Below are positions 36,150 to 39,063 of a stretch of DNA of 64,000 nucleotides, piece after piece; position 1 is the stretch's first letter, and every line of letters begins with the position of its first letter. The position numbers were made by a program, and so were the translations under genes. The stretch covers positions 1,922,001 through 1,986,000 of the forward strand of contig LR778114.1 in the NCBI GenBank assembly GCA_902809825.1, written 5' to 3'. The notes under the pieces were generated by a model. The model made no database searches, had not been told where the DNA came from, and saw only the letters and a program-made list of their open reading frames with translations. Source of the DNA: Candidatus Hydrogenisulfobacillus filiaventi. GTDB lineage: Bacteria > Bacillota > Sulfobacillia > Sulfobacillales > R501.

Positions 36150-36896
36150 ATGAGCCAGCAGCAGCCCGGGACGGTCCTGGGCCGGGTACGGGCGGTCTTC
36201 TTCGACCTCGACGACACCCTCTACGACTTCCGGCGCACCTGGGAGACCGTAACCCGGGCCTTCCTGGCCGAAATCCTGCCCCCGCCCCATCGCGTGGATG
36301 AGGTCTGGCCCGCCTTCGACCGCCTGAACCGCGTGATCTACCATTACGCCGACCGCGGCCATTTCCCCGGCCGCCTGGCCCGCCGCCTGCGCTGGGAACT
36401 GCTGGCCGCCTTTCTCGGCCTCCATTTCCCCGACTTCGACGCCCTGACCGCCGACCACATCGGGCGCATGGCCGCCGGCTGCGTGCCCTTCCCCGATACC
36501 CTGCCCACCCTGGCCCGCCTGCGGGCCCTGGGCCTGACCCTGGGGGTCATCACCAATGGACCGCGGGAGCTGCTGGCCCGGCGTCTGACCGCCATCGGGG
36601 CCCGCGACTACTTCCCCGACCACCTGTGCATCGCTGCCGACCAGGTGGGCCGGCTGAAGCCGGGCCCGGAGATCTTCCTGGCCGCGCTGGCGGCGGCGGA
36701 GGTCGCCCCCCATGAGGCCCTGTACGTCGGCGACTCCTGGACCTTCGACGTCAAGGGGGCGGAGGCGGCCGGCATCCCCGTCATCTGGATCGACCGCCGG
36801 CGGCGGCCGCCGCCCGACCCGGCCCTGATCGTGGCTGCTGTGCCCGACCTGACTGCGGTGGCCGACCTCCTCACCCGCGCCCGCCGCTCCCCCTAG
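36150..36896 (+). CDS. HAD-superfamily phosphatase
   Basis: A 248-residue hydrolase. Catalytic motif I is D19-x-D21 in [11 protein letters not shown], motif II Thr/Asn in GVITNGP, motif III Lys in [10 protein letters not shown], and motif IV in [13 protein letters not shown] helical cap lies between motifs I and II (subclass C1), resembling YjjG/2-haloacid-dehalogenase-like phosphatases. Start ATG follows CAGGGAGGGGGGCCA. Its 3' end overlaps spoIIP by four bases, tail to tail. The substrate is unknown. Confidence 0.88.
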
Positions 36897-38128
36897 CCCC
36901 CGCCCCGGGTCAGGGCGCCGGTGTGCGCCAACTGGGCCAGGGCCTCGGCGAGGTAGCTGGCGGCATAGCGTTCCTGGGCCAGGGTGTTGCCCGGCCCGCC
37001 GATGCGGATGAGGAGGTCGGCCGGCAGCAGCTCCTGGTTATAGCGGTAGGGCACGGTGCTGACCCCGTCCTTCCCCTCCAGGATGCCCGGCGCGTCGGCC
37101 TCGAGCCGCCCGGCCAGACGCAGGGCGAAGCGCAGGTCCTGGTGCCAGTAGGGATCCGGCAGCAGGCGGTTGGTGCCGACCACGATGGCGATGCGTGCCA
37201 CCCGCACCCCCGCCAGCTCGACGGTGGTGGCGGCGGGGTCGGGGTTGTCCCCCCGGGCCACGTCCAGCAGCACCCGCACGCCCGGGTACCAGGTCAGGAT
37301 CTGCCGCGCGGTGCGGTAGGAAAGGTGGTAGGCGTCCAGCAGGCCCTGGCGCATATTGTCGACCCGTGCCTGCACCACCGGCACCCCCAGCCGGTGCAGG
37401 TCCTGCGCCAGCCACCAGCCGACCTGCACCACCGTGCGCGGCCAGTCGGTGCTGTAGCCGCTGCCGCCCCCGCCGAAGGTCTGCCGGGTGAAGGTATGGT
37501 AGATGCCGATGAGGGGTCCGCTGCCCAGCTGCGCCCAGACCCGCCCGTGATCGCCGGGCAGGGCGGGGGCGACGGCCTCCGGACCCGGCAGCCCCGGGGG
37601 CAGGGGCGCCGCCGCCGGCAGCGGACGGGCGGCGGCCGCTTCCATCACCGGCAGGGCCAGGGCCACCAGCTGCCGGAGGTCGTGAATACGGCTGCCGCTC
37701 AGGTCGGCCAGGGCCGCCCCCAGCCAGGACCGCCAGGAGCGGGGGGCCGGGGCGGGCGGCAGCATAGCCGGCAGGGCGGCCTCCACCCAGGCCCGGGCGG
37801 TGGCCTCCTCCACCCCCAGAGCCGCCAGGGTCCGCCCCGCCCAGGAGGACGGGCCCGCCGTCCGGCCGCCCAGGGGTGCCGTCACCGGCTGCAGGGGCGG
37901 GAACAGGCGGCGGGGCCCGCCCGCCAGCACCCACAGGCTGGCAGCCAGGGTGAGCCCGTAGACGGTCAAGGCCCCCCAAGGCCACCGCCAGGCCCGGGCC
38001 GCCGCCGGCGGCCGCCCCACCGCCGGCGGATGCGGCGCCCGCGCGCGGGGGCCCCGCCGGGGTCCGGGCCGGTTCCAGCTCCGCCGGGACCCGCTCCACC
38101 AGATGATGATCGGCCGCCGCATGCCCAT
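36893..38128 (-). CDS. spoIIP: SpoIIP-family sporulation protein with altered active site
   Basis: SpoIIP normally cleaves septal peptidoglycan with SpoIID during engulfment. Family features: a membrane anchor at about residues 51-70, then IGIYHTF (H211), VVQVGWWLAQDL, YHLSYRTARQIL, VARIAIVVGTN and YRYNQEL...IGGPGNT. The order and spacing match, and the gene sits in the rpsT-spoIIP-lepA neighbourhood. However, three positions that are acidic or His in the homologues I recall have changed: the HTHxxE-like motif reads H-T-F-T-R-Q (211-216), DIHRD reads D-V-A-R-G-D (289-294), and VEVGG reads I-R-I-G-G (R375). ATG at 38128 has a weak ribosome site. The gene is full length (411 aa). Confidence 0.82.
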   Translation of the reverse strand: MGMRRPIIIWWSGSRRSWNRPGPRRGPRARAPHPPAVGRPPAAARAWRWPWGALTVYGLTLAASLWVLAGGPRRLFPPLQPVTAPLGGRTAGPSSWAGRTLAALGVEEATARAWVEAALPAMLPPAPAPRSWRSWLGAALADLSGSRIHDLRQLVALALPVMEAAAARPLPAAAPLPPGLPGPEAVAPALPGDHGRVWAQLGSGPLIGIYHTFTRQTFGGGGSGYSTDWPRTVVQVGWWLAQDLHRLGVPVVQARVDNMRQGLLDAYHLSYRTARQILTWYPGVRVLLDVARGDNPDPAATTVELAGVRVARIAIVVGTNRLLPDPYWHQDLRFALRLAGRLEADAPGILEGKDGVSTVPYRYNQELLPADLLIRIGGPGNTLAQERYAASYLAEALAQLAHTGALTRGGG

Positions 38129-38186
38129 CCCCCCGGTTCCGGTGTTACCCGATCCCTATGGGACGAGCCTGGGAAAAATTCCGGTT

Positions 38187-39044
38187 TTATCCAGACGTCC
38201 GCCGCCCGCTTTGCAGCAGCCCCGGCCGGCGTTGCAGGGCCAGGTAGAGGAACAGAAAGTAGGAGACGGCCACGTCCGCCAGCGCCCACACCGTGTTGAC
38301 CCCCACGGTGGCGTCATAGGTGCCGTGGAGCACCGCCACCGTCAGCCATCCCCAGCCGGCCGGCCCCCAGCGCCAGCGCGGCCCCTGGGCCGCCACCCCC
38401 AGGGCATAGGCCGCCACCCCCGCCCAGATGGCGTGCAGGAAGGGGGTGTAGAGGGCGCGGGTGAGGGCGGTGACGGTGCCCAGCCCCACTGCCAGGTGGG
38501 ACATGTCCATGAACACCCCGCGGTTGACGTAGTCGATGTTCTCCACCGCCGAAAAGCCGAGCCCGGAAACGATCCCGAGGGCCATGAAGGCCCAGGGATT
38601 CCACACCCGCCCCCGCCAGCGCTGGTAGAGGGCAAAGCCTCCCACCACCAGCTGCTTGGCCGTCTCCTCCACCATGCCCACCGCGACCACATAGGTCAGC
38701 CAGGAGGCGGTGTCGAGGGGACCCGCGATCAGGCGCCGCGCCCCCCAGGCCATGGCGGTGGACTCCAGCCCGGCCGCGAACAGCACCCCGAACACGGCCG
38801 TGAACAGGTAGGCCGCAGCATCCAGGGTGCGGGAGGGGGTGCGCAGTTCGTCCCCGCTGATGCGGCGGAAGATCACCAGCCAGAACAGCGAAAAGTAAAC
38901 CATCATGCCTGCGATCACATCCACCCGCAGGCTCTCCATAATCATCGGGGCCACCGCGAAGACGAACAGCCCCAGGTACTGCGGGGATCGGGCCACCCGC
39001 CAGCCGTAGGCCAGCGTCCGCAGGGGCCCCTTCTTCTCCAGCAT
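38187..39044 (-). CDS. PrsW-family membrane metalloprotease
   Basis: A 285-residue protein with about eight membrane segments. The glutamic-type/metalloprotease motifs of PrsW are present: E126-E127 in MVEETAKQL, FSAVENI at 164-170, H204 in FLHAIW and H240 in LHGTYD. PrsW of Bacillus performs site-1 cleavage of the anti-sigma factor RsiW; here no anti-sigma gene is near, so the target is unknown. ATG at 39044 lies seven bases after AGGAG. It occupies the place where gpr, a spore protease gene, lies in Bacillus. Confidence 0.85.
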   Translation of the reverse strand: MLEKKGPLRTLAYGWRVARSPQYLGLFVFAVAPMIMESLRVDVIAGMMVYFSLFWLVIFRRISGDELRTPSRTLDAAAYLFTAVFGVLFAAGLESTAMAWGARRLIAGPLDTASWLTYVVAVGMVEETAKQLVVGGFALYQRWRGRVWNPWAFMALGIVSGLGFSAVENIDYVNRGVFMDMSHLAVGLGTVTALTRALYTPFLHAIWAGVAAYALGVAAQGPRWRWGPAGWGWLTVAVLHGTYDATVGVNTVWALADVAVSYFLFLYLALQRRPGLLQSGRRTSG

Positions 39045-39063
39045 GTGCACGCTCCTGTCCGCC

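Follow-up and report, generated by a model that had tools for sequence, protein, structure and literature searches.

The spoIIP gene of Candidatus Hydrogenisulfobacillus filiaventi is located on the minus strand at positions 36893..38128 of the window, by which we mean the whole stretch of 64,000 nucleotides that was analysed. Its reading frame is open throughout and codes for 411 residues, and a search of the complete single-contig chromosome (2,570,337 bases) returned exactly one SpoIIP. Against the Pfam family SpoIIP (PF07454) the protein scored 108.5 bits, the cut-off being 24.4, with a match spanning residues 202-398 (36935..37525 on the minus strand), and it reached 96.8 bits with the NCBIfam family TIGR02867, below the curated cut-off of 123.15. 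A hydrophobic stretch in the N-terminal part, residues 51-70 (37919..37978, minus strand), forms a helix in the AlphaFold2 model and would serve as a membrane anchor. Between spoIIP and lepA, the plus strand carries a gene for a HAD hydrolase (36150-36896) that shares four bases with the end of spoIIP. Directly upstream, a gene for a PrsW-family intramembrane protease (38187..39050, minus strand; PF13367, 90.8 bits) is placed between rpsT and spoIIP, a position at which it was not recognised in relatives. The gene order holA-rpsT-spoIIP, followed by lepA-hemW where the locus extends, was found throughout the order Sulfobacillales, and the spoIIP of the window occupies the orthologous position. 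Promoter scoring detected a SigE-like site, GAATTTT-N14-CATAGGGA (38153..38181, minus strand), 53 bases upstream of spoIIP. Sites of such a score were present within 130 bases for 30 of the 40 orthologues of the order, compared to 103 of 2000 control stretches (5%). Since 1.5% of random 100-base stretches of the window reach the score of its own site, this site is by itself modest evidence; the gene is putatively under SigE control.

The genome also contains a SpoIIQ-like LytM protein, SpoIIID and the full spoIIIA operon (SpoIIIAA to SpoIIIAH), and germinant receptor genes are present within the window. Its sole match to TIGR02831 (67.9-68.7 bits, below the curated cut-off of 100.2) was counted as SpoIIM. 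In the window genome and in its Sulfobacillales relatives, the SpoIIQ-like protein (L146:7603-8259) exhibits YYNPGITI in place of the active HxxxD motif, as in bacilli. As for an alternative amidase that might compensate for SpoIIP, the Amidase_2 and Amidase_3 families offered no evident candidate: Amidase_2 was absent from the 46 genomes searched, and the window genome has a single Amidase_3, a number not above that of relatives, whose motifs are intact and which is nearest to CwlD.

With a threshold as loose as E<=10, the SpoIID family (PF08486) still had no match in the window genome, so that the genome lacks the SpoIID component of the DMP engulfment complex (SpoIID-SpoIIM-SpoIIP). The absence of SpoIID in Sulfobacillus was previously published (PMC7924749), and among the other sampled Sulfobacillales only one MAG (G013) gave a match. 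The locus reads atpC-ywmB-spoIIQ-spoIIID in the window genome, with spoIID missing; ywmB-spoIIQ-spoIIID, with nothing recognisable between, is common to the window genome, Sulfobacillus thermotolerans (G017), G004, G018 and G030, and the order in the class member G308 is spoIID-spoIIQ-spoIIID. A phylum survey of 249 genomes at least 90% complete found SpoIIP in 216; SpoIID was missing from 15 surveyed genomes, and the SpoIIP-positive ones among these were just the two Sulfobacillales. In the same survey, the sole SpoIIP match of one genome of complete quality (G213) was very weak (E 3.8e-5). The only SpoIID-domain gene that Sulfobacillales yielded, that of G013 (L101, G013:C26:1-8000), sits at one end of its contig, where the G+C content is 76.8% against about 71%. 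The far part of the contig resembles the rest, and the gene may be native, acquired or a contaminant.

In the alignment, the window protein reads H211-T-F213-T-R-Q216, D289-V-A291-R-G293 and I-R375-I-G-G, exactly as the original prediction had described the three altered motifs of this SpoIIP homologue, and the equivalents of all four active-site residues are replaced. F213 (37490..37492; this codon and those that follow are on the minus strand) stands at the catalytic His of motif 1, by inference H142 of C. difficile, and Q216 (37481..37483) at the conserved Glu of HTHxxE, both by alignment and by the column test described below. Alignment and hhalign place A291 (37256..37258) at the catalytic His of DxHRD, H222 in C. 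difficile, and R375 (37004..37006) at the Glu of (V/I)E(V/I)GG. The alignment also puts Q385 (36974..36976) at the Glu of GGxxNxxxE, E309 of C. difficile by the published motif; Gln occupies this position also in several relatives whose other catalytic residues are intact. The first His of the HTH motif, H211 (37496..37498), is kept in the window and is Gln in nearly all other Sulfobacillales in the alignment. Because conservation of this first His is restricted to clostridia and not found in bacilli (PMC6934232), the His that experiments found to be essential in motif 1 would be the second, F213 of the window, and H211 is probably not the catalytic His.

The residue equivalence between SpoIIP and Amidase_3 was taken from a profile alignment. 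Canonical SpoIIP and Amidase_3 were aligned by hhalign with an E of 2.2e-5, the DxHRD His (A291 in the window) falling on the SxHxN zinc His of Amidase_3 and the (L/V)E(V/I)GG Glu (R375) on its catalytic Glu. The label 'zinc ligand' for the SpoIIP positions is by homology only, since C. difficile SpoIIP is active with no detectable bound metal, which makes any role of a metal tentative (PMC6221140). In C. difficile, H142 (HTH) and H222 (DxHRD) are needed for amidase activity and sporulation, the H142R and H222R proteins being inactive and giving no spores (PMC6221140), and the E309A variant (GGxxNxxxE) fails to complement (PMC6934232). The window SpoIIP, which lacks both catalytic His (F213, A291) and both Glu (Q216, R375) of an active SpoIIP amidase, would be without amidase catalysis, as judged from its sequence and these published mutants.

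The substituted positions were then set against a reference of 33 intact-motif SpoIIP proteins from elsewhere in the Sulfobacillales. Out of 59 columns invariant in this reference set, the window protein keeps 52 and differs at 7, four of which are H213F, E216Q, H291A and E375R (hypergeometric p 7.7e-5); the three others, V207I, S266A and N331D, are mild changes. This column test indicates that the four catalytic substitutions are something other than chance drift. The AlphaFold2 model of the window protein has a mean pLDDT of 72, mostly 80 to 97 over residues 231-400, and its domain 202-398 matched mycobacterial Amidase_3 structures (Foldseek E 9e-7). By VIA, the Z was 13.9 with Rv3717 (171 residues, 3.4 A) and 11.8 with CwlV, and the model of an intact-motif SpoIIP from G013 gave the same fold picture. 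A search by sequence for a solved SpoIIP structure found none. The amidase fold is thus predicted to be kept in the window SpoIIP despite the lost catalytic residues.

We considered whether such a protein might have lost its amidase activity and kept a peptide-crosslink endopeptidase activity sufficient without SpoIID. Both activities are known for the SpoIIP of B. subtilis and C. difficile, the residues for the endopeptidase not being assigned (PMC6221140), and many residues of the domain are conserved in the window protein, including Y210, D289, R292, N364, Q365 and G377. However, amidase activity is reported to be needed, at least in part, for the endopeptidase to act, the H142R and H222R strains cannot sporulate (PMC6221140), and no second active-site-like cluster was identified in the window SpoIIP. 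On balance we hold this explanation to be unlikely.

Substitution of the catalytic residues was not limited to the window. Eight degenerate SpoIIP genes were found: that of the window, L034, the group L040, L049 and L050, the clade L043/L048, and L051, which belongs to another order of the class (source genome G057). The equivalents of His213 and His291 are lost jointly in every one of them, those of Glu216 and Glu375 only in some. The residue sets of the degenerate lineages (HFQAGRNQ, QEQQSESE, QFQQSENE, QRENAQNQ and HIEEGENQ) do not converge on a common replacement, as would be expected of loss and not of redesign. On a maximum-likelihood SpoIIP tree built minus the catalytic columns, the fewest changes gave four catalytic losses. 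A single origin of all seven losses within the order was weakly rejected (AU p 0.04), while a joint loss in the window and L034 was not (AU p 0.19); because of these tests, the catalytic His would have been lost in about four lineages, and in at least three on a conservative reading.

Every genome with a degenerate SpoIIP (both catalytic His lost) was devoid of a SpoIID match, G057 included, and SpoIID was present in the sampled class members outside the order with fully intact SpoIIP motifs. The original prediction had named as refuting evidence either a supply of the ligands by nearby residues or a sharing of the changes by many active SpoIIP proteins; no residues restoring the set were found, and the SpoIIP with intact motifs do not share the changes, the loss being limited to a few SpoIID-less lineages. 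The SpoIIP proteins of Sulfobacillales with intact motifs do share other changes, found order-wide: the first His of HTH is replaced by Gln, VHS by VQS (Q253), HD by NM (N258), and the last D of DxHRD by S, G or A (position 293 in the window). These order-wide changes may reflect an altered substrate handling following the loss of SpoIID. The SpoIIP of one class member whose genome has a SpoIID match (L113, G306) exhibits HTD for HTH, VDIGG for VEIGG and DLHRGD, with DxHR kept, and is possibly an intermediate or a case of an acidic metal ligand.

A second explanation is decay, that is, a relaxed selection on sporulation with SpoIIP heading for loss. In G003, a Sulfobacillales genome of the same genus (g4) as the degenerate G005, no SpoIIP, SpoIIM or SpoIIIAH match was found, and sporulation has apparently been lost there, beside a lineage with a degenerate SpoIIP. 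The score of the window SpoIIM is also low. The dN/dS was about 0.23 in two close degenerate pairs (L049/L050 and L043/L048), at the high end of the range of about 0.04 to 0.22 of intact SpoIIP pairs; these values come from other lineages than the window, whose SpoIIP has only distant pairs for which dN/dS is unusable. Purifying selection on degenerate spoIIP would therefore persist, perhaps in a weaker form. Against decay, the open reading frames of all eight degenerate genes are intact, most invariant columns are kept in the window protein with the losses concentrated at the active site, and the window genome retains the spoIIIA operon, SpoIIID, the germinant receptor genes and the promoter-like site. 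We regard this course of events as quite improbable.

A third explanation is a rebuilt site, in which H211 and new neighbours such as D331 would take over metal binding or acid/base catalysis, leaving an amidase that still works by another mechanism. H211 is indeed kept where nearly all relatives have Gln, and Asp replaces N331 both in the window protein and in the clade of L043 and L048. This change arose in parallel in the two, both of which are also without Glu375. However, the absence of any replacement set common to the degenerate lineages speaks against a rebuilt site, which we find very hard to credit. A sequencing or assembly artefact can be dismissed with near certainty: the chromosome is a single contig, the reading frame is open, the four missense differences in it are scattered, and genomes assembled independently show parallel changes.

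Taken together, the window SpoIIP is probably a membrane-anchored pseudo-amidase that, after the loss of SpoIID, was retained for a structural or peptidoglycan-binding part in engulfment. According to the current model, SpoIIP strips the stem peptides and so denudes the glycan strands, and SpoIID cuts denuded strands only (PMC6221140). In B. subtilis without SpoIID, SpoIIP activity leads to septal bulges (PMC12700454), and in a C. difficile spoIID mutant an inactive SpoIIP relieves asymmetric engulfment (PMC6934232). We propose that the loss of spoIID in Sulfobacillales left the SpoIIP amidase with no partner to feed and possibly harmful, a situation that would favour repeated inactivation; the catalytic His and Glu would then have been replaced in the several lineages counted above. 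The protein itself is retained; it would be expressed by the mother cell under a SigE-type promoter and would probably act, in a structural or peptidoglycan-binding capacity, together with the SpoIIQ:SpoIIIAH zipper and SpoIIM. That the protein, its fold, the conserved columns and the promoter-like site were all kept points to a non-amidase role, most likely a structural or peptidoglycan-binding one. Two observations sit less easily with the pseudo-amidase explanation: most SpoIID-less Sulfobacillales keep all four SpoIIP catalytic residues, which is why the loss of SpoIID would permit and not force the catalytic loss, and the G013 MAG has its SpoIID-domain gene.

The original prediction had also stated that the enzyme should be inactive or use a different mechanism, implying a different engulfment machinery or a pseudoenzyme partner, and had called for a search for a second, canonical spoIIP and for spoIID and spoIIM. 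Only spoIIM was recovered. An inactive enzyme together with a different engulfment machinery is the best supported of these options, because four residues are replaced and neither a second SpoIIP nor a spoIID exists; the idea of a pseudoenzyme partner of a canonical SpoIIP found no support, no canonical copy being present in the complete genome. As to what this machinery might be, we suggest tentatively that wall synthesis and the SpoIIQ:SpoIIIAH zipper could drive engulfment without any peptidoglycan hydrolysis by SpoIID/SpoIIP, SpoIIP having become a structural component that binds peptidoglycan; we would not put this at even chances. Spore wrapping in these bacteria probably departs from the textbook model.

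The catalysis of SpoIIP is held to be essential for engulfment, as the C. difficile point mutants give no spores. A 2012 survey listed spoIID and spoIIP in all spore-formers (PMC3533761), a 2019 review described both SpoIIP catalytic His as strictly conserved in bacilli and clostridia (PMC6934232), and in the open-access literature we found no report of SpoIIP pseudoenzymes or of lost SpoIIP catalysis. Genomes that keep SpoIIP without its catalytic residues, a state reached repeatedly and only where SpoIID is gone, separate an enzymatic from a structural role and make it testable what drives engulfment minus septal wall hydrolysis by SpoIID/SpoIIP. They also suggest that the hydrolase pair was dismantled stepwise, the transglycosylase first and the amidase site next.

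In comparison with the SpoIIP of B. subtilis and C. difficile, the window protein shares the domain, the N-terminal membrane helix and a SigE-like promoter, spoIIP being driven by SigE in B. subtilis and by SigF in C. difficile (PMC6934232), but it is without the essential His pair, the conserved Glu pair and a SpoIID partner, and it stays under the NCBIfam cut-off. The SpoIIP of other Sulfobacillales, with named relatives including Sulfobacillus thermotolerans Kr1 and S. benefaciens, are about 40-50% identical to it over the whole protein (e.g. S. thermotolerans, L073) and have Q253, N258, the gene neighbourhood and the absence of spoIID in common with it, whereas such proteins keep the His213, Glu216, His291 and Glu375 equivalents that the window protein does not. 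Several of the named relatives are identical in sequence to genomes counted as same-order, which puts the window in the Sulfobacillales. By model, its fold is like that of the Amidase_3 proteins CwlV, Rv3717/Ami1 and CwlD (VIA Z 11.8 to 13.9), whose zinc His and catalytic Glu have no equivalents in the window SpoIIP. The engulfment machinery already offers one hydrolase fold whose active site has degenerated, the LytM protein SpoIIQ of bacilli (PMC6934232), a precedent that differs from the window SpoIIP in fold and in role.
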